Source: Cohaesibacter celericrescens (GTDB lineage Bacteria; Pseudomonadota; Alphaproteobacteria; Rhizobiales; Cohaesibacteraceae). Taken from it: DNA of 38,799 bases. This document shows, in pieces, positions 479-14,455 of this stretch. The first letter of the stretch is position 1; every line of letters begins with the position of its first letter. The stretch covers positions 1-38,799 of the forward strand of contig NZ_PKUQ01000010.1 in assembly GCF_002866925.1 (NCBI RefSeq), read 5' to 3'. Both the position numbers and the translations under genes were made by a program. A model generated the notes under the pieces. That model was not told the DNA's origin. It did not search any database and saw nothing but the letters and a program-made list of their open reading frames with translations.

Positions 479-1201
479 TCAAGCCTCCGCCTCTTCATAG
501 GCATAGCCCACGCCATAGACAGACCGAATGATTTCAGCGCTCGGCGCAACCTTTCTGAGTTTTGTGCGTATATTTTTAACATGGGTATCAATCACACGAT
601 CAAACACATCAGTATCATCTGGGAATGTAAGTTCGACCAATTGCGTCCGTGAGAAAACCCGTCCCGGGCGCTTATGTAATGTAGCGAGCAGCTGAAACTC
701 ACGTCTTGTCAGAGGAAGCTCTTGCCCTTGATATGTGACAGCCCAGCGGTCTTCATCCAATTTCAGAGGACTATCGTCAAGCTCAAAGTCGGCTGACTTT
801 TGCTGTGAAAGCAACATGAGTTTTTCCTGTCTGCGCAAGATAGCCTTCACCCGCGCCACCAATTCACGTGGCGAAAAGGGTTTGCAGACATAATCATCAG
901 CGCCCAGCTCCAGCCCCAACAACCGATCCAGCTCTTCAACCCGAGCCGTTTCAAGGATAATGGGCACATCACTCTTGGCGCGGACTTCGCGGCAGATACT
1001 CAAACCGTCCTTACCAGGCAGCATGACGTCCAGAATGACCAGATCAGGCGCGCGCTCAAGGATTGCTTCCACCGCATGAGCCCCTTCATGCAAAATATCA
1101 GCGGTCATGCCAGCCTGCTTCAGATAGTCCTGAATGATTATGGCGAGAGAGGGTTCATCCTCAACGATCATAATGTGCCAACCATCATTGTATTCCGTCA
1201 T
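479..1201 (-). CDS. OmpR/PhoB-family response regulator, BaeR-like
   Basis: A 240-residue transcriptional regulator with a receiver domain (about residues 10-122) and an OmpR-type winged-helix DNA-binding domain (about 145-235). The acidic pocket (E14, D15), the phosphoacceptor D58 in a VILDVMLPG context, the conserved T85 and K107 are all present. The output domain has the usual LTRREFQLL and VIDTHVKNIRTKLR helices and a C-terminal VYGVGY hairpin. The overall pattern, including LGLELGADDYVCKPFSPRELVARVKAILRR spread over residues 95-123, is closest to BaeR, the envelope-stress regulator, as I recall it. It lies 43 bases downstream of the sensor kinase on the same strand, so the two are almost certainly cotranscribed and partners. 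Its target genes cannot be read from the sequence; the divergent five-gene operon is a reasonable guess. Confidence 0.93.
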   Translation of the reverse strand: MTEYNDGWHIMIVEDEPSLAIIIQDYLKQAGMTADILHEGAHAVEAILERAPDLVILDVMLPGKDGLSICREVRAKSDVPIILETARVEELDRLLGLELGADDYVCKPFSPRELVARVKAILRRQEKLMLLSQQKSADFELDDSPLKLDEDRWAVTYQGQELPLTRREFQLLATLHKRPGRVFSRTQLVELTFPDDTDVFDRVIDTHVKNIRTKLRKVAPSAEIIRSVYGVGYAYEEAEA

Positions 1202-1244
1202 ATCGTTTTCCCGATCCTTTCAATCGCCAAATATAACGATCGCG

Positions 1245-2759
1245 TTAGCCTAGATCCATTCCAATTGGCAAGTGGATTTCAACGGCCAACCCACCCAAAG
1301 ACGAAGGCCTCGCTTGAATGCTACCCCCGTGGGCTTCGACAATAGCCCGACAAATGGCCAAACCCAAACCGGATCCCCCTGATTGGCGCGCTCGAGACGG
1401 ATCTGTTCGATAAAACCGCTCAAATAAGTGACCAATATCCTGTTCATCAGGACGAGGCGAGCTATCTTCTATGACAAGAGTAATTTGATCTGCACTTTTA
1501 TCTACCGAATGCGAGAAAACGCGCACCTTACCCGGGGCATCCGTGTATCGACGTGCATTCTCCAATAGATTGTCCAGCATTTGCCTAATGCGATTTCTAT
1601 CACAATAGACCAGAAGCCCATCAGGCAAGTCCAATTCAACAGTCAGGCCTTTCTCGGCATAGCGCCCACCGATGTGCTGGACCGCATCGCAGACCAAAGC
1701 TGACAGATTTTCTTCAGACAGGTCGCATAATATCCGCCCTTCACGTGCATGCGTCAACATATTGAGGTCGTTCACAAGACGGTTCAAACGATCAACAGTC
1801 TGATGCATCTCAGACAACAAACCGGCATCGGCCTGATAGATGCCATCTTGCAGCCCTTCGATGCGACCTTTCAGGATAGCAAGCGGCGTTTTTAGTTCAT
1901 GCGAGGCGTCCGACATCCACTGACGTTCGGCTTTTTCTGCCGTCTGCAAACTTTCTGCCATCGAGTTAAAGTCTCGCACCAGCGAGCCAATTTCATCAGG
2001 CCCCTCTCCTTTCATGCGAGCAGAATAGTTTCCCGCCGCCAAATCTCGGGTGCCACGAACCAAAGCCCGGATGGGCGTCACAACATTGCGCGCCAGCAAA
2101 AAAGCCGCCAGCGCGGAGATACCAACGGCCAACAACGAAACCCATAACAATGTGCGAAACTGATCCAACAAGAATTGATCATCCCGAGCGGCACGCCCAT
2201 CTTGGGGGCTCGACAGTGCAAGCCACCCGATAACTTTGCCTTCCACCCCGTCTTTGGTTTCGGCATAAACGGGACGCGATGCATAGGCCCGCCCCCCCAG
2301 TCGGGCCCCGGCCAAATATGCCCCATCCGGCGTGAGCAAACTCAGGCGCATACCCAGGTGCAGAGGATCCGGTTGAGCGGGAGGGCGTGGTGGAGACATC
2401 CTGTCCGGCGCCTCAAACCGAGGCGGCATTTGGCCAATCCCCGGCCGCGGAGGACGAGACAAAGATAGAATAGGCGGATTCTGCTGAGCCCCTCGCGCCT
2501 TCATGCCAGAACGGACAAGATCATCCCAAACATTTGCGGCGCTATTCAAACGCTCCCAAACGACTGGGTCGCTATGGGCTTTGGCGATTTGATCGACCAA
2601 TTCATCCATGCCCTGAAGCTCAACCTGAAGCAGATAATCAGAAAAACCAGACCGCATTTTTTGGCCAATAAGGCCCGCAATCACCAGAATGATCAAAATA
2701 CTGGTGACGAGAAAGGCGGCAAACAATTTTGTGGCAAGGGAGTGCTTCTTCCAAATCAT
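1245..2759 (-). CDS. Sensor histidine kinase, BaeS-like
   Basis: A 504-residue inner-membrane sensor kinase. TM1 spans about residues 11-31 and TM2 about 203-224, with a periplasmic domain of about 170 residues between them. A HAMP linker follows (225-275), then the H box with H287 in SHELKTP, the N box with N401 in DNLLENARRY, and a GGSGLGLAI G2 box at 461-469. The D-box region reads EDSSPRP and lacks the usual DxGxG glycines; BaeS, as I recall it, also deviates here (DSAPG). The sensor domain has a proline/methionine-rich stretch at about 95-132 that looks like a low-complexity insertion. I start at the ATG at 2759; an in-frame extension to 2834 would add a Cys-rich tail that does not look native. 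No strong ribosome site precedes this ATG. It is the first gene of a kinase-regulator pair reading away from the five-gene operon. Confidence 0.9.
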   Translation of the reverse strand: MIWKKHSLATKLFAAFLVTSILIILVIAGLIGQKMRSGFSDYLLQVELQGMDELVDQIAKAHSDPVVWERLNSAANVWDDLVRSGMKARGAQQNPPILSLSRPPRPGIGQMPPRFEAPDRMSPPRPPAQPDPLHLGMRLSLLTPDGAYLAGARLGGRAYASRPVYAETKDGVEGKVIGWLALSSPQDGRAARDDQFLLDQFRTLLWVSLLAVGISALAAFLLARNVVTPIRALVRGTRDLAAGNYSARMKGEGPDEIGSLVRDFNSMAESLQTAEKAERQWMSDASHELKTPLAILKGRIEGLQDGIYQADAGLLSEMHQTVDRLNRLVNDLNMLTHAREGRILCDLSEENLSALVCDAVQHIGGRYAEKGLTVELDLPDGLLVYCDRNRIRQMLDNLLENARRYTDAPGKVRVFSHSVDKSADQITLVIEDSSPRPDEQDIGHLFERFYRTDPSRARQSGGSGLGLAICRAIVEAHGGSIQARPSSLGGLAVEIHLPIGMDLG

Positions 2760-3110
2760 AATCAAACCATGCCAGTCAAATGTGAAGGGATCGTGGACCA
2801 CCAAACAACCGTTGCAACAGCAAATTTCGGGCAACAGGATTTCTATTCTGCTCTCAGCATCTCAACAAACCCATAATCCACCAGACAGCAAGATTGAAAC
2901 AAGTGTCATAAAGCCAGACAGCGGCCTCAACGTTCGACGCTGTGCATCAAAAAGCCGATATTCACAAAATTTGCACCACGCAGATTGAAATACCGACGAA
3001 TTCGCTAGTCAATTCAGCCTTTTCGAGATCATGCTGTAATGTAGTTGATTGAACAATGAATTGTTAGATACTACCTTGAAGTTGTAGGGTTGAATTTTGA
3101 AGGAAAGCTT
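2760..3110. promoter_or_regulatory. Divergent intergenic region between kinase and five-gene operon
   Basis: These 351 bases separate the sensor kinase from the coiled-coil gene and must hold promoters for both directions. I find no convincing sigma-70 pair on either strand. The clearest signal is the imperfect inverted repeat at 3041-3073, listed separately. An in-frame upstream extension of the kinase across 2760-2834 is not supported as coding. Confidence 0.45.
3041..3073. repeat. Imperfect inverted repeat upstream of the five-gene operon
   Basis: The outer arms are GTAGT at 3041-3045 and ACTAC at 3069-3073. The inner arms are AACAAT at 3052-3057 and ATTGTT at 3060-3065, separated by GA. 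That gives 11 paired bases in each arm around an asymmetric internal loop. It ends 37 bases before the ATG of the first operon gene, so it could be an operator or a hairpin in the 5' leader. Confidence 0.5.
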
Positions 3111-4187
3111 ATGTCCAGCTTTGATGCACAAATTAGACAATCTAAAGAAGAAATCGAGACCGCTAAATTGAAGATATCGGAAATGTCGTCCAAAATTGAA
3201 ACGGCGAGAGAAAAGCTCGATTCCGGGATTGATATTTCTATCGATATTGAAAATGCATCCCTTCAAGATGTGCATTCTCACACAGAGGCCATGAACGCCA
3301 ATATTGCGGAGCTGATTATGGGTCTCGACGATGTCACGTCGGCCTTTTCCAAAGATTTTGATGCTATGCGCTCCTATTCGGGGTGGGAGACAACGATTGG
3401 CATATTCTCGAAAGCCCGTGCCGATAGCTTGCGGCAAGAACGCATGCGCACAGCCAACATCGACGACAAGCTACAGGACCTGATCTCAAAATCTGACGTG
3501 ATCACCCAACTGCTGCAAGGCCAACTAAACACCCTCAATGAACATTCTACCAGAGTTGAGCAAAACCTGTCCGAAACCCTCGCCAATCGAGAGCAAACGG
3601 TAACAGATCTTGAAAGCATCAAAAGCCAGATCTTGAAGCTTGATCCCGATATCATCGCGCTTGAAAACAAAATTGCAGTTGAAACAGACGCCGCGGCACG
3701 CACAAAACTCGAAACAGATCTGGCTAAATTGAACGGACAATTCAACAAGCTGGCACAGGAAGAACAGGTTAAACTGGCGCAGAGCCAAACTCTTGAGCGC
3801 TATATTGAACAGGGAAAGACCTGGGTCGATAGCTTGCAAAATCAGGCCGCAACTCAGATGGTTCTCATCAATAAACTGCAAACGGACACCAAGCAGCGCG
3901 TTGTTCTGTATGATGCCTTGACCAAGTCTTTAAAAACGGCCCAACAGCAAGATGTGGCGCACCGGATCAATGAAATCGGTGTTGCAACAGATCAGGAAGC
4001 CCAGACGGCAATGGCCGCCATCGGCTCTGCCACCAATCAACGTATGGCCGATATGATGGAAAAACACGAAGATCACATGGTGTTTGCTCGTAAGGTTCTG
4101 GAAGAAAAAGCCAAATCTGATGATCGCTTTGCGCGCAGGTTTGAAAGTATCGTCGAAAAACACGACAAAAACACCTATGGCTCATGA
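3111..4187 (+). CDS. Coiled-coil protein, first gene of uncharacterised AAA+ operon
   Basis: A 358-residue protein with no signal peptide and no membrane segment, almost entirely predicted helix. Heptad-rich stretches lie at about residues 1-45, 100-215 and 225-300, and there are very few glycines and prolines. I do not recognise the family with certainty. The long helices and a QMVLINKL...YDALTKSLK region are vaguely like TelA/toxic-anion-resistance proteins, but the match is too weak to assign. The start is the ATG at 3111, with GAAGGA at 3099-3104 six bases upstream; a TTG at 3090 in the same frame has no comparable site. The stop overlaps the next gene's start (ATGA), so the two are translationally coupled. 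It is probably a cytoplasmic scaffold or substrate of the AAA+ protein encoded two genes downstream. Confidence 0.8.
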   Translation: MSSFDAQIRQSKEEIETAKLKISEMSSKIETAREKLDSGIDISIDIENASLQDVHSHTEAMNANIAELIMGLDDVTSAFSKDFDAMRSYSGWETTIGIFSKARADSLRQERMRTANIDDKLQDLISKSDVITQLLQGQLNTLNEHSTRVEQNLSETLANREQTVTDLESIKSQILKLDPDIIALENKIAVETDAAARTKLETDLAKLNGQFNKLAQEEQVKLAQSQTLERYIEQGKTWVDSLQNQAATQMVLINKLQTDTKQRVVLYDALTKSLKTAQQQDVAHRINEIGVATDQEAQTAMAAIGSATNQRMADMMEKHEDHMVFARKVLEEKAKSDDRFARRFESIVEKHDKNTYGS

Positions 4188-5323
4188 GCGAGCGCGTGGA
4201 TCTAACCTCTGATCATAGATCTCTTGAGGATGCTCACGAGACACGGCGGTATTTTGACAAATTTGGGCGCATTATCACCCACCTGACACAGGTTGCAGAA
4301 AACGCCACCTCGAACAAAATTGCGCTCGATACCGAGCTGCCCACTGTCAAAGATTATCTGACCGCTTTATCGGCAACCTTCACCGCCCTGTCCTATAAAT
4401 ATCTTCTGGCGGGGCGGGTTTCCAACTTGCTGCCAAGCATATTGAATATTGACAGACAGGACAGCGGGTTCCCGATCTATCAGGAATTACTGCAAATGGC
4501 CAGTGACGCCACGCAAGCCGAACGGCGCCTGAAGTCCCTGCCCTCAATGAAACAACTCAAGCAGGATATGGTCCATCATATCCTGACTGAAAACACCGTA
4601 CCGATAGAGCAGCAATTTGCCGCCTCGCAGTTGCATTATTACAATCTATTACGCAGTGACCGGATATTCTGGGCGCACAACGATCCACGCGCTGTCTGGC
4701 AGGGCGACATGTCCGAGAATCGCCGCAGCTATCATATCCATTGGGCGGTTTATGACAGCCAGCAAAATATTCCCGTCATCTATCTCCTGGATGTGGAGGA
4801 TACCGGCCGGCACGCATTACTCAAGGATGAGAGGCGCTGGCCACGGGTTCAAGCCCATTTGATGGCACAATCATCAGCCTCCATGAAGCTAGTGACCATT
4901 GCGCGAGGGTTCGACCAGGATTTTGATGACCTGCACCCCAAGCGGCTAAGGCGCATATTTGTCGGGCCCATGTATAGCCATGCCTTTACCGAACAATCCG
5001 GACCACTGCGCGATGTGTTGGCACAATCCAGCACAGTACCGGAACTGGATTGGGCACTGGCGTGGACTGCGGAAACACTTGTCGCATCGAGATCCGAACG
5101 GCAATCGGCCGGATTTTTTAGCACCGTTGAACGTCAAATCTATCAACTGGATCCACTAGGCACATTGGGTGGTTTTGAGACAGATGGTTTGACCGAGCAA
5201 CAACGGTCGTTGATTTTACCGCAACGACCTTATCAGATTTTGAAAGAACGCAATCCACCGGGTTTTGATCACATACGCAAATATGTCGTCAGCCCTTCGG
5301 GGAGAGTTCTGAGCTATAGATAG
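4184..5323 (+). CDS. Unknown protein, second gene of AAA+ operon
   Basis: A 379-residue soluble protein I cannot place in a family. The first 150 or so residues are helical and the rest looks mixed alpha/beta, with a strand-rich part around residues 180-215 (SYHIHWAVYDSQQNIPVIYLLDVEDTG region) and an Arg/Pro-rich C-terminus. There is no signal peptide or membrane segment. It starts at an ATG that overlaps the preceding stop by four bases and ends nine bases before the likely GTG start of the AAA+ ATPase. Such tight packing suggests the products act together in fixed proportions. No catalytic motif is apparent; a role as adaptor or structural partner of the ATPase is inference only. Confidence 0.75.
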   Translation: MSERVDLTSDHRSLEDAHETRRYFDKFGRIITHLTQVAENATSNKIALDTELPTVKDYLTALSATFTALSYKYLLAGRVSNLLPSILNIDRQDSGFPIYQELLQMASDATQAERRLKSLPSMKQLKQDMVHHILTENTVPIEQQFAASQLHYYNLLRSDRIFWAHNDPRAVWQGDMSENRRSYHIHWAVYDSQQNIPVIYLLDVEDTGRHALLKDERRWPRVQAHLMAQSSASMKLVTIARGFDQDFDDLHPKRLRRIFVGPMYSHAFTEQSGPLRDVLAQSSTVPELDWALAWTAETLVASRSERQSAGFFSTVERQIYQLDPLGTLGGFETDGLTEQQRSLILPQRPYQILKERNPPGFDHIRKYVVSPSGRVLSYR

Positions 5324-5332
5324 GCTTTGTTC

Positions 5333-7279
5333 GTGACCATATCGACAGATCTAATGGAACTCAAAGAAGACCATATCCGCGAGAAATATACACTGGTTGA
5401 GGTTATGCTGGCCGGGTTCGATCACACGCCTCGTATTGCGACCACACGCAATGCAAAGCCCGTCACCGAACGCTCCAGTGGCCTTGGCACGCGGCGCAGG
5501 TTCCGGTCGACCACACCAGGTTTCACCACCCGTCCGAACACAGCATCGGAAGGCGTGCGACTGAGCGAACGCATCACCGAATGCGATGACGACGATCCCT
5601 TAATGAGCCCGCTACAAGCCACGGTTTTGCGATCCTTGCGCCGCGCCTTGTCTGTTGCGCAGGTGGTCAGCGATCAATTTGCCGATCAAACTGGCCTAAG
5701 CGATAAAATGCGGGACAATCTTGCCGGCTCCCTTGCTGCCAACCAAATCGCGGATTTCGAGGAATTGCTCAACGCCACCGCGCTCATTAGCCTTCATGTT
5801 TTCGCCAACATGACCGACTTCTTGCTAGCAAACAGCTCTAACGACCCCGCCAGTGATCTCGATATTGGCGATGTGGAAGAAATTGTCGTAGACAATCCGC
5901 AGCTTGCGTTGCATGGCGCCTTGTGGGAGTTGGACCAAAAACTCTCATCATTCGCCAACTCAGACAACCAGCTCATAGCAGTGGTGATGGCTTTTTGCGA
6001 AAAACTGATGGAAAAGGTCGCACGACGGGCCGAAGCCTCCAGTCGTTTAGAGCCTTTTACCAGCGTCAACTACCGTGTTGAAGCCGAAGATTTTGAGATC
6101 AACGGATTCATACCGACCGCGCGGGCACGCTCTTCCTCTCTGACGATGACCTTTAAAAAGCCCCATGAAGTGGTTGGCAACCACATCGCCAAACATCAAG
6201 CAATGAAACTGTCTAAGATGCTGATGGCTTATGATTTTGATCGCAAGCTCAACCCCTTTGCCGAGCTTGGCGGCTTTATTTTCACCTTCATGGGCGACGG
6301 CAAACCGGGCACAGGCAAAACAACGCTCATTCAGATGATGGCCGGATTGATCAATGAATATTGCCAGAACGCCGGTTATGCTTTCCGATACCAGAATCTG
6401 TCGACCGACAGTATCGACAGTTATCAGGGTAAATCTGCTCAAAATGCCAAAGCTTTTATCAAAAATGTCCTGGATCCGAAGGTAATCGGCTTTGGCACGG
6501 TTGACGACATCGATCAGCTGGCGGGCAAACGCGGTGATCGACAGTCATCCGCAGGCCAGTTGGAAATCACAGCCGTTTTGATGGAAAGCTTTGCTGGGGC
6601 CAATACTGTGGTGCGCGGGAACTGCACATTCGGCATGTTTTCCAATTATCCCGAAAATGTCGATGATGCTTTGCGCCAACGCGCAGGGGCGCGGTTCTTG
6701 GTTGATGGACCACAGACACAAGAAGACTATATCGACATTTTGCACTTGCTCATCGGCAAAAATCACCAGATTCCTCTTGGAGATCACGCCTTGTTCGAAG
6801 CGCAAGTGATCAAAAAAGCGGTTGCCGCCTCCTATGACCGTCACTCCCGCCCCACAGAAGACGCCTTGTTGAATGTCTTTGATCGGGTGTCTTCAGAGAT
6901 TGGCACCTTAGATACCATCGCGAAATTGGGGCGTTATCTCAAAGCCATTCAACAAGCCGATGAGCGCTTCACCGGTCGTGCCATCAAGAACATAACGGAC
7001 GCAATCAAGGTACGGGCGATGGATTTTGAATTGCCGGATGAATGGATGGAAAACACCGCGCTGTTCTTGGCGCGGGATTATGAAACCAAGAAAAACATGA
7101 TCGCAGAACTCGCTAAACCCATCACCACTGAAATGGCGCTGCAGGAAATCAATCGCTATGCCGACAGCGAATTCCGCTATGCGGATAAATCGGATGAAGT
7201 GGCAATTGAGGCCGCCGTGCGCGACATGCAACGCACAGCAGAAGCAAAACGTCGCTATCTGGAGACATTGTCACAATGA
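5333..7279 (+). CDS. AAA+ ATPase with large N-terminal domain
   Basis: A 648-residue protein with an N-terminal helical region (about 1-290) and a single AAA+ module (about 290-500), followed by a helical C-terminus. Walker A is GDGKPGTGKTT with K329. Walker B reads GFGTVDDID at about 386-394, with aspartate (D392) where most AAA proteins have the catalytic glutamate. Sensor 1 and the second region of homology read FGMFSNYPENVDDALRQRAGARF, giving an Asn and candidate arginine fingers. This is the classic AAA clade pattern (FtsH, p97 or spastin type) rather than Clp or MoxR. There is no protease domain and no membrane segment. The GTG at 5333 is preferred over the TTG at 5327 because AGG at 5322-5324 lies eight bases upstream; an ATG at 5354 is also possible. 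It probably remodels a partner encoded in the same operon. Confidence 0.88.
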   Translation: MTISTDLMELKEDHIREKYTLVEVMLAGFDHTPRIATTRNAKPVTERSSGLGTRRRFRSTTPGFTTRPNTASEGVRLSERITECDDDDPLMSPLQATVLRSLRRALSVAQVVSDQFADQTGLSDKMRDNLAGSLAANQIADFEELLNATALISLHVFANMTDFLLANSSNDPASDLDIGDVEEIVVDNPQLALHGALWELDQKLSSFANSDNQLIAVVMAFCEKLMEKVARRAEASSRLEPFTSVNYRVEAEDFEINGFIPTARARSSSLTMTFKKPHEVVGNHIAKHQAMKLSKMLMAYDFDRKLNPFAELGGFIFTFMGDGKPGTGKTTLIQMMAGLINEYCQNAGYAFRYQNLSTDSIDSYQGKSAQNAKAFIKNVLDPKVIGFGTVDDIDQLAGKRGDRQSSAGQLEITAVLMESFAGANTVVRGNCTFGMFSNYPENVDDALRQRAGARFLVDGPQTQEDYIDILHLLIGKNHQIPLGDHALFEAQVIKKAVAASYDRHSRPTEDALLNVFDRVSSEIGTLDTIAKLGRYLKAIQQADERFTGRAIKNITDAIKVRAMDFELPDEWMENTALFLARDYETKKNMIAELAKPITTEMALQEINRYADSEFRYADKSDEVAIEAAVRDMQRTAEAKRRYLETLSQ

Positions 7280-8619
7280 TGCGACTGGTAAAGCGCGGAT
7301 TGATGTTTGGCAACCTGTTTGAGGTGACCTCACCTGCCTTGGTCGGGCGCTACAATCGAGCGCTCAAACACCTGACAGGCAGGACAACCAGGCTTGCAGA
7401 GTTCCACATTGATATTTCCGGTTTCTCGCCCGAAATCGGCGACGAATTTGACGATCTTCTCTATTTGAATCCAGACGGCTTTAACCGGCAATTCATCTTT
7501 CTCTCGATTGAGCAAAGAAAATCGCCACTTCTCAATGCCCAGTTTTCTATGTCACGGACCATCCTGAAAGACTATATCAGCCGCCATGAAGAGCAGTTGT
7601 TTGCGTTGACGGCCCGCAATGCGGTGGTTGGAGAACTGATCAATTCTGCATATTCTATCAATACGCCGCTCGATCTGTTCAGCATCCGCACAATCGAAAT
7701 CGAAGCCGACACCATCGAGGCCCATGTCGAAGCCAGCAACATTCTGACCAACAAAATAACGCGTTTCATGAATGAGCCGGACAGTTGGTGGGACGATGTT
7801 TTGATCGCCGACATGATCGAACTTTCCAAACGCACCGGCGACATCACGAGCAACCCCATTCGTTTGGAAGAGCATGCACTGGAACAAAAGAATTTCTATA
7901 CCGACCATTTTGGTGGCATCTATTTGTTCCGAGATATGCAAGAGCCAGCCTGCATCGCGGTCGACAAGCTGGACAATCCCGAAGACCTGCCAGTGGAATA
8001 TGCCTGCACCTTAAAGGATCGCTTTGAAATCGCCGCCTTTTTGAATATCAACGAATTGGTCGAGCCCATTGTCGAAGCACAGGGTATGCAGGCCAGAGCG
8101 GTGTTGCGGCAAAAACTGGATTTCATTGTCATTGATGTTGCTGCGGACAAAGGCGAGGATTTATCAAACACATCACGCCGGGATTTGCGCAGACTGAAGC
8201 GAAAATTATATCAAGACTTGCCAGCGGAATATCATGCTCTGGAAGAAGTCCTGATGAAGAATGAAGCCGGCCACCCTCCACTCAGGCTCAGGCCAGATCA
8301 CCCTGCTTATTTCTATTTGTTGCGCTCCAAGAACCACCGTGACAAACATCTGATCAACATGCTTCTGGCGCAGATGGCCCCATTGGATTTTAGGCAATTG
8401 TTCATTTGCCACAAAACCGCATTTTATTCAGCCTATCGCTCATGGAGTGATGCAAAGAGAGAATTTGTCGCACAATTCCTCGAAGACGAATATGCCGTTG
8501 ACAAGGCAGGTGCAAGAGAAGAGCTTTTCGGACCAGAGCCAAGCATGGCAGAAGCCGAAGATGCTTACGACGACGATGACTGGCAAGGACCGTGGGGCCC
8601 AATACCCGCAGATCGATAA
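7276..8619 (+). CDS. DUF6638-like protein of unknown function
   Basis: A 447-residue soluble protein whose opening (MFGNLFEV...LVGRYNRALKHLTG, about residues 10-36) matches, from memory, an uncharacterised alphaproteobacterial family called DUF6638; I could not check this. It is mixed helical and strand, with an acidic C-terminal tail (DAYDDDDW at about 430-437). No catalytic motif is evident. The start overlaps the ATPase stop (ATGA), with GGAGA at 7261-7265 upstream; a second in-frame ATG at 7279 is equally usable. The gene ends 11 bases before the DUF1523 gene. Its place next to the ATPase suggests a dedicated partner or substrate-recognition subunit. Confidence 0.78.
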   Translation: MMRLVKRGLMFGNLFEVTSPALVGRYNRALKHLTGRTTRLAEFHIDISGFSPEIGDEFDDLLYLNPDGFNRQFIFLSIEQRKSPLLNAQFSMSRTILKDYISRHEEQLFALTARNAVVGELINSAYSINTPLDLFSIRTIEIEADTIEAHVEASNILTNKITRFMNEPDSWWDDVLIADMIELSKRTGDITSNPIRLEEHALEQKNFYTDHFGGIYLFRDMQEPACIAVDKLDNPEDLPVEYACTLKDRFEIAAFLNINELVEPIVEAQGMQARAVLRQKLDFIVIDVAADKGEDLSNTSRRDLRRLKRKLYQDLPAEYHALEEVLMKNEAGHPPLRLRPDHPAYFYLLRSKNHRDKHLINMLLAQMAPLDFRQLFICHKTAFYSAYRSWSDAKREFVAQFLEDEYAVDKAGAREELFGPEPSMAEAEDAYDDDDWQGPWGPIPADR

Positions 8620-8630
8620 CGGGGGACTTG

Positions 8631-9302
8631 ATGCAAATTCTTAAATGGGCGGTTGGCGCCATCATTGCCATTTTGGTTGTTCTATTCTTGCACTATACAT
8701 TGCCATCCCGTGACATTGTCCGGATTGTCGGCACGGATGTGAAGCGCATGGATATCGGCGCGTCGTGGTTCTGGGCCTCTCCCGACGCAGGAACCACCAA
8801 GGTCGATACCAGAGATGTGCGGTTTATCAATGCCGAGCTACCCAACGGCAAACCCTATGTCTATCGCAACGAAGACACCGATTGGAGCTGGCCACCTTAT
8901 CTGAAATTTGACAGCGGCAACCTCACCGCTCAGGCGCAATCACTGGCACAAAAGAATGACAATTGGGTGGCCGTAACCCACTATGGCTGGCGCATCAAGC
9001 TCTTCACTATTTTCCCCAATGTGGTGAAGATCAAACCTGTTGCAGGACCGGATGTCTTTCTGATCCCATGGTTCAACATTGTCTTCTTCATGTGCCTCGC
9101 TGCAATTGCTTATTTTATCGTCCGCATGATCCGGATATTCAAGGTCGAGCAAATCGATCCTGTCCTTGACGAGATCGAACAAACCGCCGATGAGATGACC
9201 GACAATATGTCCGATTACACAGATCAAGCCCAAAGCCGATTGGGCTCTATCCGAGCGGCTATCAAGGCTTGGTTCAAACGCTGGTTTGGCGAGGTCAAAT
9301 AG
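8631..9302 (+). CDS. DUF1523 family inner-membrane protein
   Basis: A 223-residue protein with a first membrane helix at about residues 3-24 (ending LHYTLPSRDIVRI), a periplasmic domain, a second helix at about 137-160 (LIPWFNIVFFMCLAAIAYF), and a cytoplasmic helical tail of about 60 residues. HYTLPSRDIVRIV, NGKPYVYRNEDT, WPPYLKFD, THYGWR and VKPVAGPD-like blocks are hallmarks of the DUF1523 family, common in Rhodobacterales and relatives; its function is unknown. The ATG at 8631 follows GGGGGA at 8621-8626 and removes 13 unlikely residues from a longer frame starting at 8592. As the only membrane protein of the operon it could tether the ATPase complex to the inner membrane. No clear terminator follows. 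Confidence 0.88.
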   Translation: MQILKWAVGAIIAILVVLFLHYTLPSRDIVRIVGTDVKRMDIGASWFWASPDAGTTKVDTRDVRFINAELPNGKPYVYRNEDTDWSWPPYLKFDSGNLTAQAQSLAQKNDNWVAVTHYGWRIKLFTIFPNVVKIKPVAGPDVFLIPWFNIVFFMCLAAIAYFIVRMIRIFKVEQIDPVLDEIEQTADEMTDNMSDYTDQAQSRLGSIRAAIKAWFKRWFGEVK

Positions 9303-9814: not shown

Positions 9815-10327
9815 ATGAAACATTCACATGGCTCCTCATCTTGCGCTCACAAGCGCTCTGAAATGAAGCAAATATTGGTCGGAGAGCTGAAGCGCTTTCT
9901 AACCGAGTTGTGTGTTGTGCTGTCCCTACTGATGATGCTGGTTCAGACCTATCCAGCAGCTTCCAGCGCGATGAACGAGTGGACACCTATTTGTTCAAGC
10001 GCCGGCCTCTCCCTTGTTCAGATCCCTTCTGATGAAAATGTGCCAAACGACGATTGCACGCGCTGCGTCCTCTGTTTCACGCATCACAATTCATTTGTCG
10101 GCGTGCCTGTTAAAACGACAGACATGCCATCTCCCCATGCAGGCAAGGGTTTTTCTCAACCCGAACTGGTAGCCAATTCGATTCCATTGCCGGATCACCT
10201 TTTGCCATTTTCTGGCGCGCCCCCTCCATTCAAGCAAGTTGAACCAATGTTGCACACTTATTCTGTGTCGGTGTCACCGACACCAAACACTGTGCCTGTC
10301 ATGCCGGAGATCATCTCATGGCATTAG
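9815..10327 (+). CDS. nosC: NosC-like CXXCXXC protein preceding nosR
   Basis: A 170-residue protein with a hydrophobic segment at about 32-52 that could be a signal peptide or anchor. A conserved cysteine part follows: C60 in TPICSSAG, then C81, C84 and C87 in CTRCVLC followed by H90 and H91. The CXXCXXC motif and the place directly before nosR match NosC of the Paracoccus nosCRZDFYLX cluster, whose role is unknown; the ICxxxG...CxxC pattern also recalls DUF2946. The ATG at 9815 falls on the predicted transcription start and has no ribosome site. The ATG at 9863 gives a tidier signal peptide but drops a His/Cys-containing N-terminus. The stop lies ten bases inside nosR, so the two are coupled. 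A metal- or redox-related role is inferred from the cysteines. Confidence 0.72.
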   Translation: MKHSHGSSSCAHKRSEMKQILVGELKRFLTELCVVLSLLMMLVQTYPAASSAMNEWTPICSSAGLSLVQIPSDENVPNDDCTRCVLCFTHHNSFVGVPVKTTDMPSPHAGKGFSQPELVANSIPLPDHLLPFSGAPPPFKQVEPMLHTYSVSVSPTPNTVPVMPEIISWH

Positions 10328-12537
10328 GCAAAAGACTCTTTCCCGAATTTTGGCGCACGCTTGCCCCCTTGTTGGTGCTGTTGGCCGCCACCCTTCTCCT
10401 CACATTGCCAGCTAGCGCACTCGGCAACCAGCCGGTCATCGAGAAATATCTGACAAAAGTAGCCGCGGCTGACTTGGTCGAGGGAGCAACGGACTATGGT
10501 CCGCTCCGAAGCGACGTACCCATAGCGCCTGTCATGAAAAATGATGAGCTGCTGGGCTATGCATTCATCACCAGCGACTTTGTCAGCACAACCGGATATT
10601 CGGGCAAGCCCATACATGTGATGGTTGCGATTGACCCTGATGGCAAATTGCTGAAGGCCAATCTTGTCAAACATTCAGAACCCATCGTGCTGATCGGCAT
10701 TCCCAACAGCAAAATCCAAGCCCTGACCGAGACTTATTCGGGGTTGGACATCGTGCATGAAGCAAAAACCGGCGGATCTGGCCACGATCTGGATATCATT
10801 TCCGGGGCCACCGTCACGATTATGATCATTGATGATTCTATCGTGCGGTCTGCGATTAAAGTTTCACGCGCCATGCAGCTGGGTGGCCTCACTGTTGAAG
10901 CGGGCAGTGATACCCCCCCACGCGCCCTCAAGTCTGACCTTATTACTGTGTCTGATTGGCAAACCCTCTCGGGTGATGGTTCCATCCGCCGCATGACGCT
11001 GGACATTGGGCAAGTCAATTCTGCCTTTGAAAAGGCCGGTGATGCTCGCGCCATCAAACGGCCAGAGCCAGGTGATCCGACCGATACCTATATCGACATG
11101 CAGGCTGCATTGGTATCAGTGCCAAGCATCGGTTTGAGTTTGCTCGGTGACGCAGAATATAAAAACCTGACCGAGTGGCTGAAAGAAGGAGAGCAGGCCA
11201 TTTTGATCATGGGTCGCGGTGTCTATTCCTTCAAAGGTTCTGGTTATGTGCGCGGCGGCATATTCGATCGCATTCAATTGATTCAAGGCGACAATTCGGT
11301 CCGTTTCCACGATCGTCAGCAGAAACGTCTCGGGGCTCTGGCACCAGATGATGCGCCGGCTTTCAATGAGCTGGATATCTTCAAGATTCCGGCGGACGCA
11401 GACTTTGATGTGGGCGACCCGTGGCGCTTGCAATTGCTGGTCAACCGCGCGGTCGGACCGATTGAGAAAACCTTTCTCACCTTCGATCTGGGCTACAAGC
11501 TGCCAGAATTTTATCTTGAGCCGCGCCCTGTTGCTCCGCTAGCAACGAGTGTGGTGGATGGAGACGAAGATGCAGCGGCACGTGCGGCCTTATGGAAGCG
11601 GGTCTGGAACGACAAAAAAGTCGAAATAGCCATTCTGTTGGTGATGCTCACGGTTTTGACTGGGACATTCTTTTTCCAAAAACAAGCCACGCGTAATGCC
11701 AAAGCCTTCTATTGGTTCCGCATGGGGTTCCTGACCTTGACACTGGCATTCCTCGGATGGAGCCAGAATGCCCAATTGTCCATCGTCAATCTAATGGCAC
11801 TTGGCGCATCTTTCTCGGATGGTTTCAGCTGGGATGCCTTTTTGCTTGATCCCTTGGTGTTCATCCTGTGGAGCTCGGTTGCGGCAGCCTTGTTGTTCTG
11901 GGGGCGCGGCGCTTTTTGCGGCTGGCTTTGCCCATTCGGAGCCTTGCAGGAGCTTTCCAATCAGATAGCACGCTTCTTCAAAGTGCCACAAATCACACTG
12001 CCTTGGGGTCTACACGAGCGGCTTTGGCCATTGAAATATATGATTTTCATGGGTTTGGTCGGGCTGTCGATGGTCTCGGTTCCCCTTGCGGAACAATATG
12101 CAGAAATCGAACCATTTAAGACTGCGATTATTCTCAAGTTCGCACGCGGATGGCCCTACGTTCTGTTCGCTGTTGCCTTGCTCAGTGCGGGGTTGTTCAT
12201 CGAACGGTTCTATTGCCGCTATCTATGTCCGCTGGGTGCCGCACTGGCCATCCCCGGTAGAATTCGCATGTTTGACTGGCTCAAGCGCTACAAAGAATGC
12301 GGCAGCCCGTGCCAGACATGCGCCAATGAGTGCTTTGTTCAAGCCATCCATCCAACCGGTGAAATCAACCCCAACGAATGCCTGTCGTGCTTGCACTGTC
12401 AGGTTCTCTATCAAGACGACCAAAAATGCCCTGTTTGCATCAAACAAAGAAAAAGCAGGGAAAAAATAGCAAGAAGCAACGCCACATCAGCGGATGCATT
12501 CAGTCAATTGCTTGGCCAGCCAAGCGCTAAAAACTAG
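10318..12537 (+). CDS. nosR: NosR, membrane flavo-iron-sulfur protein for N2O reduction
   Basis: A 739-residue polytopic membrane protein needed for electron delivery to, and expression or activity of, N2O reductase. An N-terminal signal/anchor (about 10-34) is followed by a periplasmic FMN-binding domain with the flavinylation motif SGATVT at 162-167. A set of membrane helices starts at about residue 435. Two CxxxCP motifs (C534/C538 and C633/C637) lie on the membrane part. A C-terminal cytoplasmic ferredoxin-like region follows, with cysteine clusters [12 protein letters not shown] and CLSCLHC for two [4Fe-4S] clusters. Length and order are those of NosR. The ATG at 10318 has GGAGA at 10306-10310. 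The stop TAG lies in the nosZ ribosome site. Covalent FMN requires an ApbE/NosX transferase, which this cluster lacks. Confidence 0.96.
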
Positions 12538-12550
12538 GAGGAGTGGTCAC

Positions 12551-14455
12551 ATGACTACCGATGACAAACAAAAAGAAGGCATTTCCCGCCGAGGTCTGCT
12601 TGGTGGAACAACCGCGGGTGTCGCGATAGCCGGGTCTTTGGCCGTTGGCGGTGCTGCGATGATGAAATCGAATCCGGCTGTCGCTGCGGAAAATAAAACC
12701 GCCTTGCATCCCGGTGAACTTGATGAATATTACGGCTTCTGGTCTTCAGGACAGTGCGGCGAAATGCGCATTCTTGGATTGCCGTCCATGCGCGAACTGA
12801 TGCGTATCCCTGTATTCAACCGTTGTTCTGCGACCGGTTGGGGCAGCACAAATGAATCCAAAAAAATCCTCACCGAAGGCCTGATGCCAGAAACCAAAGA
12901 GTTTTTGGCAAAACGCGGCATGGAAACTTATGACAATGGTGACCTTCATCACCCGCATATGTCCTTCACCGATGGCACCTATGATGGTCGTTATTTGTTC
13001 ATGAACGACAAAGCCAACACCCGTGTGGCTCGTGTACGCTGTGACGTGATGAAATGTGACAAGATCATCGAGATCCCCAACGCCTCTGATATTCATGGCT
13101 TGCGACCCCAGAAATACCCGCGCACAGGATATGTCTTTGCCAACGGAGAGCATCGTGTGCCTCTGGTCAATGATGGCAGCATACTCGATAGCCCTGAAGA
13201 CTATGTCGCAATCTTCACCGCCATTGATGGCGATACCATGCAAGTCGCATGGCAGGTGATTGTTGACGGCAACCTCGACAATGTCGACGCGGATTATCAG
13301 GGCCGTTATGCCATTTCCTCCAGCTACAACTCCGAAGGCGGCGTCACTCTGGCTGAAATGACCGAAGCCGAAATGGATCATGCTGTTATCTTTGATATCA
13401 AGCGCATTGAAGCCGCAGTCGAGGCTGGCGACTACAAAGAATACAACGGGGTGAAAGTTCTGGATGGCCGCAAGGGCTCCAAATTGACCGCTTATATTCC
13501 TATTCCGAACAGCCCGCATGGGGTAAACACCGCACCAGACGGCAAATATGTGATGGTCAATGGCAAGCTGTCGCCAACCGTTTCGATTATCGAATTGGAT
13601 AAAGTCGAAGCCGTCTTCCAAGGCGCAGACCCTCGCTCTTGCATTGTTGGCGAACCTGAACTGGGTCTTGGCCCTCTCCACACAGCCTTCGATGGTCAGG
13701 GCAATGCCTTCACCACCCTGTTCCTCGACAGTCAGGTCGTGAAATGGAATATCGACAAAGCTGTTCGGCTCTATGCTGGTGAAGAAGTCGATCCAATCCT
13801 GTCAAAAGTCGATGTACAATATCAACCCGGCCACAACCACACTTCGATGGGTGAAACCAATGAAGCGGATGGCAAATGGCTGATCTCTCTAAATAAATTC
13901 TCCAAAGACCGCTTCCTTAATGTCGGGCCACTAAAACCGGAGAATGAACAGCTGATCGACATCACCGGTGACACGCCGGTTGTAGTGCATGACAGCCCAA
14001 CCTTTGCCGAGCCACATGACTGTATTATCGTTCATCGTTCCAAGGTGAATCCAGTCAATGTCTGGAGTCGCGATGATCCTATGTGGGAAGATGCCCGCAA
14101 GCAGGCAGAAGCCGATGGCGTTGAGCTCGAAGACGGCCATGACGAGGTCATTCGCGATGGCAACAAAGTGCGGGTCTATATGTACTCGTCCGCACCGACT
14201 TTCTCGCTTGAGAAGTTCACCGTTAAACAGGGTGATGAAGTCACCATCTATATCACCAATATCGACGATGTGGATGATCTGACTCATGGGTTCACCTTGG
14301 GCAACCACGGCATTGCTTTTGAGGTTGGACCACAGGCAACGGCCTCGGCAACCTTCACCGCAGACCGTCCCGGTGTGCATTGGTTCTATTGCCAATGGTT
14401 CTGTCACGCACTCCACATGGAAATGCGTGGCCGTATGCTGGTTGAACCTGCTTAA
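12551..14455 (+). CDS. nosZ: Nitrous-oxide reductase, clade I (Tat-dependent)
   Basis: A 634-residue periplasmic copper enzyme that reduces N2O to N2. A twin-arginine signal (SRRGLLGG, R13/R14) is followed by the seven-bladed propeller that binds the CuZ cluster; histidine ligand motifs DLHHPHMSF (131-139) and GHNHTSMGE are visible. The C-terminal cupredoxin domain holds the CuA site: C614, W616, C618, H622 and M625 in [13 protein letters not shown]. The Tat signal and neighbouring nosR mark clade I. The ATG at 12551 follows a strong AGGAGGAG at 12536-12543; a frame extension to 12494 would run into nosR and is rejected. The very strong ribosome site fits the high demand for this subunit. Confidence 0.98.

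Follow-up and report, generated by a model that had tools for sequence, protein, structure and literature searches.

Which genes of a tightly packed AAA+ ATPase operon belong together, and what might their products do? The question is raised by five genes, here called A to E, in a 38,799-nucleotide (nt) stretch of Cohaesibacter celericrescens (contig NZ_PKUQ01000010.1, positions 1 to 38,799; hereafter the window). Gene A encodes a coiled-coil protein, C the ATPase, D a DUF6638 protein and E a DUF1523 membrane protein (Table 1). An earlier note, made from the letters of the window, took all five as one functional unit. We find that A to D form a conserved core and that E is an exchangeable partner; between C and D, whose coding regions overlap in the window, most of the relatives examined carry additional DNA, whose content differs from species to species between little-changed flanks. 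This C/D slot is what is new here. The earlier note did not describe it because the slot is empty in the window; the variable A/B interval and a conserved membrane gene of 88 amino acids (aa) between D and E in relatives likewise go beyond it. We propose, as close to an even call, that the A-D core and an exchangeable E make up one membrane-linked, ATP-driven machine whose interchangeable effectors occupy the C/D slot, and we predict that it acts in conflict with phages or rivals. The results show how the operon evolves; its cellular role is predicted from sequence comparison.

Two sets of loci bear on the core. Scanning genome contigs with an alignment of the ATPase gave at least 588 pattern matches, at least 561 of them relatives, and 80 loci were kept; A to E are all present, in one order and on one strand, in 69 of these. 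Nine of the 11 exceptions are cut by contig ends; in L011 gene A was not found and a gap of Ns adjoins B, and L039 is weighed below. The second set is centred on DUF6638: a family-wide search covered 394 genomes and found the gene in 173, and 80 regions around it were fetched from this list; about 12, most of them close to a contig end, were passed over. Of the 80 regions, 75 hold all five genes, and the genes present keep their order in every one. Contig ends cut three of the five exceptions. In L160, C and D lie 5.9 kb apart (559-6474), with open reading frames (ORFs) of 327 and 1314 aa between them rather than one small gene, and in L199 there is no C inside the fetched 6.4 kb. Since all five genes co-occur in so many loci of both sets, the arrangement is more than chance.

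The operon is concentrated in few families, as the low counts in broader samples indicate: DUF6638 occurs in 3 of 190 genomes of a class-wide sample, the window's own genome included, and the ATPase, at 1e-30, in 20 of 299 genomes of a phylum-wide sample. The window's genome has a single match to the ATPase, and no relative turned up in the viral contigs searched. Gene A is 66-81% identical in 28 relatives. Further afield, the A-B-C-D order is kept on S. meliloti pSymB, in Shinella, on R. leguminosarum pRlX5 and on a Vibrio vulnificus replicon of about 0.9 Mb, and A to D are also found in eight genomes of one other genus; the order is conserved from Rhodobacterales and Hyphomicrobiales to a Vibrio replicon. 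Identity to the window proteins is 42.6% (A), 31.5% (B), 49.9% (C) and 30.3% (D) in S. meliloti and 37.2%, 27.8%, 42.8% and 26.4% in V. vulnificus, and D of both is a DUF6638 protein by Pfam (256 and 199 bits). Records of V. parahaemolyticus show A and C in the same annotated layout. On R. leguminosarum pSK03 there is only a distant A with a DUF2333 gene, bordered by the same neighbours as the operon of S. meliloti. The set A to E is also present in G623, a genome of another class, which suggests horizontal transfer.

Gene E is the member that changes. Several Rhizobiaceae have a DUF2333 gene instead. This replacement is seen in Sinorhizobium and Shinella and in each of the eight genomes fetched from one other genus, and neither DUF1523 nor DUF2333 was found at the Vibrio and pRlX5 loci. 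DUF1523 also stands in genomes without DUF6638, at six of 30 checked loci, with the family-wide search as the reference. Because E is swapped or missing in far relatives, we take A to D as the unit and E as an exchangeable membrane partner. The claim of one unit holds in that the set recurs across genomes, and has to be narrowed in that the unit is A-B-C-D. The earlier note had also said that genes lying apart in most genomes would speak against it; A to D lie together in the loci examined, and for E such separation is partly what we see. On the Vibrio replicons of about 0.9 Mb (L216, V. vulnificus; L218, V. parahaemolyticus), the core lies directly upstream of annotated mfd; an A24 peptidase gene is near it in both, and in L216 an annotated RNase H family gene as well.

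The C/D junction is wide in most relatives. After eleven duplicates were dropped there were 181 distinct loci, and in the 169 with both C and D the distance between them has a median of 586 nt, exceeding 250 nt in 131 loci, lying at 61-250 nt in 23 and measuring at most 60 nt in 15. Slot ORFs of at least 150 aa run in the direction of the operon in 71 of 79 cases. Co-directional ORFs of at least 80 aa number 142 and fall into 81 families, some of which are doubtful frames; 68 families occur once. Just one such ORF is present in 99 of the 120 loci that have any. The fit is close: the last slot ORF overlaps D by 4 nt in 74 of the 120 loci, a 4-nt overlap joins the first one to C in 55 (with the start chosen nearest C), and slot ORFs are tight on both sides in 69. 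We also asked how often DNA is shared, meaning at least 100 bp, by pairs among the 80 named loci whose C genes are at least 84% identical. Such pairs share DNA in the C/D interval in 9 of 112 cases and in the A/B interval in 10 of 109, as against 82 of 114 for D/E.

A search of 54 genomes from a single genus, with slots examined in 30 loci, shows this turnover at close range. The genus is taken to be Ruegeria, because the cargo of L283 in this set is identical to the cargo of the Ruegeria record L066. The search finds DUF6638 in 52 of the 54 genomes, 51 of them over the cut-off with a full-length protein. All 30 slots are filled, by 333-996 nt, and they represent 19 DNA types. Their longest ORFs have a median of 184 aa in the sense direction, compared with 68 aa in antisense and a mean of 63 aa in shuffles, so the slot ORFs are longer than chance. 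The flanks of the slot are up to 97% identical between close species whose slots differ; in the pair L256/L257, D is 96.7% identical and the slots have no match. In the pair L272/L273, a 916-nt slot is 97.2% identical and the D genes are 86.7% identical, the high identity running almost 400 nt into D and then dropping to about 82%. Recombination profiles along the flanks covered four pairs of loci, and this mosaic, clear in one pair only, suggests that alleles have been exchanged through recombination within the conserved genes.

Rapid turnover between conserved genes, the mark of a recombination-driven hotspot, is what the slot displays. Passages of PMC5635113 describe hotspots without mobile elements, with recombination at the flanking core genes, and the C/D slot is like the hotspots of those passages in turning over rapidly between conserved neighbours, often without mobile elements and, to judge from one pair of loci, by recombination in the flanks. 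Unlike them, as described there, it is roughly gene-sized, lies within an operon and is often start/stop-coupled on both sides, and one of its cargo families is confined to it in its strong matches. The Pseudomonas aeruginosa core defence hotspots cDHS1 and cDHS2 are regions with median sizes of 26 and 6 kb that contain whole systems (PMC10250203). Core-gene flanks, occupancy in the majority of cases and a content of mostly unknown-function genes with some defence genes are common to those hotspots and to the slot; in contrast, a single co-directional ORF fills the slot in 99 of 120 loci, and enrichment by PADLOC was not found.

The cargo consists mostly of membrane or orphan proteins, with a nuclease- or toxin-like minority. 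A hydrophobic segment is predicted for the longest slot ORF at 24 of the 30 loci of the single genus, and across all families 34 of 55 slot representatives have one. Pfam matches at 1e-3 among the slot representatives include Mrr, DUF559, PIN_10, DUF433, Schlafen AlbA_2, AbiJ_NTD4, DUF3825, DUF2971, HATPase and thioredoxin-like families. The slot of S. meliloti, which an insertion sequence adjoins, is occupied by a DUF559 endonuclease gene, as are the slots of four among the eight genomes from another genus.

We also asked where relatives of the cargo lie. For the L066 membrane cargo, the 54 genomes hold nine relatives, every one adjoining C or D; in 325 genomes 10 of 14 do so, these ten being all the matches above 100 bits. 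Four of six relatives of the soluble cargo L062 adjoin C or D as well. A 115-aa membrane family, which accounts for 19 of the 142 co-directional slot ORFs, gave 78 matches in 76 of the 325 genomes; location was determined for the best 30 of these, and 24 of the 30 adjoin C or D. The cargo is thus not fully exclusive to the slot, yet it is not a random sample of genes either.

What kind of operon would keep such a slot? The conserved ATPase motifs and the constant partners point naturally to an ATP-driven remodelling machine, presumably tied to the membrane by E. In the explanation that we prefer, C would form an ATP-hydrolysing ring coupled to the membrane partner via A and D, and the cargo proteins would be alternative outputs of this machine. 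Cargo would be swapped by homologous recombination through C and D, and frequency-dependent selection would hold the slot filled and diverse. A more specific version, which we put forward only tentatively, makes A to D the chassis of an undescribed conflict system in which the AAA+ machine would do its sensing or remodelling at the inner membrane and set off whichever effector the slot holds; a membrane pore, a nuclease or a HEPN- or PIN-type toxin is envisaged. Species could then trade effectors via recombination in the chassis genes, re-arming this immune or competitive machine without rebuilding it. The nuclease- or toxin-like minority of the cargo is the sole basis for a conflict role, and the defence reading gains weight only indirectly, from the behaviour of the slot and part of its content.

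The C/D junction could instead be a tolerated landing site in a housekeeping or envelope-stress operon, where passengers enter by flank recombination and ride on its expression while being functionally unlinked to it. We consider this doubtful. The observations that follow speak for it, weigh against interchangeable effectors, or do both. The hotspots described in PMC5635113, which recombine at flanking core genes and lack mobile elements, are a precedent, and ATGA coupling could be selected merely to spare D and E. Relatives of the AbiJ-type cargo lie on seven plasmid records of other genera, two of the six L062 relatives lie elsewhere, beside an ABC-F-like gene, and six of the best 30 matches of the 115-aa family stand beside DUF1523 in genomes without DUF6638. 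Few cargo proteins match Pfam (about 10 of 55 slot representatives, with 15 families of one member each, compared with 92 families for 55 flank genes), so that a conflict role leans on a minority of them. PADLOC at 1e-5 shows no enrichment of the cargo, matching 3 of 55 slot representatives, with slot membership inferred, compared with eight one-member families in 55 flank genes; content alone thus gives no demonstration of a defence role. The slot is kept empty in some lineages, that of the window among them: 15 of 169 junctions are empty and 23 are short, and they include all seven Roseibium/Labrenzia/Stappia loci and, from the family-wide set, L134, L189, L198 and L204. The C-side boundary of the identity tract in L272/L273 is not sharp. 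Finally, at L039, in a metagenome-assembled genome, the ATPase gene stands by itself: none of A, B, D and E was found up to about 10 kb away in either direction.

Other observations fit a passive site poorly. Empty slots should be common at a neutral landing site, whereas all 30 slots of the single genus are filled despite their varied content, unlike a neutral site under deletion; full occupancy with differing contents fits diversifying selection on the output better. The strong L066-type matches lie only beside C or D. Two other cargo proteins have no match among the plasmid records, and a third has none among the phages. In the same genomes, moreover, the D/E interval keeps its gene. On balance we prefer effectors carried by a conserved chassis, close to an even call as this is, to passengers at a hotspot, which we hold doubtful.

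The D/E interval is steady, at more than 250 nt in 164 of 171 loci, with a median of 281 nt. Its ORFs belong to one family of about 88 aa in all 64 named loci with an ORF there (L014, L019, L030, L033 and L085 among them). This protein, encoded ahead of DUF1523, has two hydrophobic segments and no Pfam match, and its gene is missing from the window and from the Roseibium/Stappia loci. The location of the 115-aa family beside DUF1523 in genomes without DUF6638 indicates that this family belongs at least partly to a DUF1523 module. One could go further and regard the 88-aa gene, DUF1523 and the 115-aa family as a separate envelope module into which A to D were inserted as a regulator, the slot being a leftover junction. 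The six of 30 checked 115-aa loci and the swap of DUF1523 for DUF2333, or its absence, in far relatives agree with this; it would explain one cargo family of 19 ORFs and not the other 80, and far relatives without DUF1523 keep the C/D slot, as the DUF559 genes of S. meliloti and of the four genomes show. We regard it as very improbable. In L325 and similar loci without DUF6638, the 115-aa membrane protein, the 88-aa protein and DUF1523 are encoded as a trio, preceded in L325 by a lipoprotein-like gene.

In the window itself, five same-strand ORFs span 3111-9302 as first described; A/B and C/D each overlap by an ATGA, while 9 nt separate B from C and 11 nt separate D from E. For C, an in-frame TTG at 5327 is a possible alternative start; the GTG start gives the length of the 100% identical cluster P0006.

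Table 1. Features of the operon in the window.
Feature	Position	Strand	Description
Gene A	3111-4187	+	358-aa coiled-coil protein, first gene of the conserved core, without a Pfam family
Gene B	4184-5323	+	379-aa protein without a Pfam family
Gene C	5333-7279	+	AAA+ ATPase (PF00004), 648 aa from a GTG start
Walker A GDGKPGTGKT in gene C	6293-6322	+	pattern in 79 of 80 relatives
Walker B region GFGTVDDID in gene C	6488-6514	+	GFGT[IV]DDID in 80 of 80 relatives
C stop/D start ATGA overlap	7276-7279	+	place of the cargo slot, empty in the window
Gene D	7276-8619	+	447-aa DUF6638 protein, last of the four core genes
Gene E	8631-9302	+	DUF1523 membrane protein, 223 aa, exchangeable partner

Most of the family assignments of the earlier note are borne out. 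Gene C matches PF00004 with 47.8 bits (cut-off 21.2), and Pfam sees no protease domain in it. E matches PF07509 (DUF1523) with 220 bits, over the curated cut-off. The D protein, which had been called DUF6638-like, is a full member of that family, with 614 bits over positions 1-436 of the 439 of PF20343. A and B have no match that reaches Pfam or NCBIfam cut-offs. The picture of a coiled-coil protein and soluble partners with one membrane protein also agrees with a hydropathy-window analysis: no hydrophobic segment is called in A to D, and two are called in E (residues 1-27 and 137-172), which make E a membrane protein. Gene B has a predicted alpha/beta fold (pLDDT, a per-residue model score, of 87), and the predicted structures of B and D have no clear match among solved structures.

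Many AAA proteins have Asp-Glu in the Walker B motif, where gene C has Asp-Asp. Searched against the sequences of solved structures, C gave its best matches with an i-AAA ATPase domain, with fidgetin-like protein 1 and with Vps4 (E from 6e-5 to roughly 1e-3). C has in common with these an AAA domain with a conserved Walker A and an acidic Walker B motif; unlike them, it has its own long N-terminal part, the DDID Walker B sequence in all 80 relatives, and the fixed partners A, B and D. Matches of this kind, together with the coiled coil of A, the membrane protein E and the mostly membrane-type cargo (24 of the 30 longest slot ORFs in the single genus), would suit a machine for membrane or envelope repair in the manner of ESCRT-III/Vps4 or PspA systems: C would remodel A at the inner membrane with E as the anchor, and the cargo proteins would be lineage-specific membrane clients. 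A two-component pair upstream would suit such a machine too: on the minus strand at 479-2834, divergent from the operon, the window encodes a response regulator (Trans_reg_C) and a HAMP histidine kinase. In relatives, however, the 25 largest families of ORFs flanking the operon include none recognised as two-component genes.

TelA (PF05816) and PspA/IM30 (PF04012) are coiled-coil proteins linked to envelope or stress functions, and a TelA- or PspA-like, ESCRT-III-type identity of A was considered. Profile comparisons detect no sequence relation. Against TelA, A has no Pfam match and an hhalign probability of 1.9, from a thin profile of seven TelA proteins; against PspA/IM30 it has no Pfam match, an hhalign probability of about 1 and a best hmmsearch E of 0.04. 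As far as sequence profiles tell, that identity is unsupported, and we consider the repair machine improbable.

CBASS (cyclic-oligonucleotide-based anti-phage signalling system) operons combine a TRIP13-like AAA protein with interchangeable effectors. The present operon is like them in pairing an AAA protein with a putative output that varies between nucleases and membrane proteins; unlike them, it has no match to a PADLOC signalling enzyme or HORMA protein in A, B, D or E at 0.1, and A and B have no known family. The same scan of A to E at 0.1 found no CD-NTase-type signalling enzyme. The core proteins match no PADLOC model of a known anti-phage system specifically: C matches TRIP13 (1.4e-6) and IetA, A matches JetC (1e-4) and D matches RmrA (0.028), all generic matches, and B and E have none. 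A literature search found, within its reach, no paper naming DUF6638; the passages retrieved on DUF1523 include none on its function, and searches with combined terms gave no matching system among the matches listed. Profile, PADLOC and literature comparisons and the structure comparisons of B and D yielded no characterised equal of the set, which the earlier note had called uncharacterised.

If slot genes are effectors, the 81 ORF families make a candidate list for anti-phage or antibacterial tests, about 45 of the 55 representatives being without a Pfam match, and DUF6638 offers a simple marker for finding them. Even if they are passengers, a gene-sized, start/stop-coupled exchange site within a conserved operon provides a clean system for measuring recombinational replacement of non-homologous genes.

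The A/B junction (L015:1294-1653, for example) is a second hypervariable interval, wider than 250 nt in 55 of 146 loci. Many ORFs in it appear to encode small membrane proteins that lack relatives, and at one locus it holds a Phd/YefM-type antitoxin-like gene, below the Pfam cut-off. In the B/C intervals of relatives, a GC-rich sequence, CTCCGGCGGGAGTA, recurs with variants, each in at most 14 of 110 intervals; it resembles a piece of a terminator or attenuator preceding the gene for the ATPase. Downstream of the operon in the window, on the plus strand at 10318-14455, lie genes for an FMN_bind/Fer4_5 protein, NosR-like by appearance, and a nitrous oxide reductase (nos_propeller), from which we predict that the genome likely reduces N2O.

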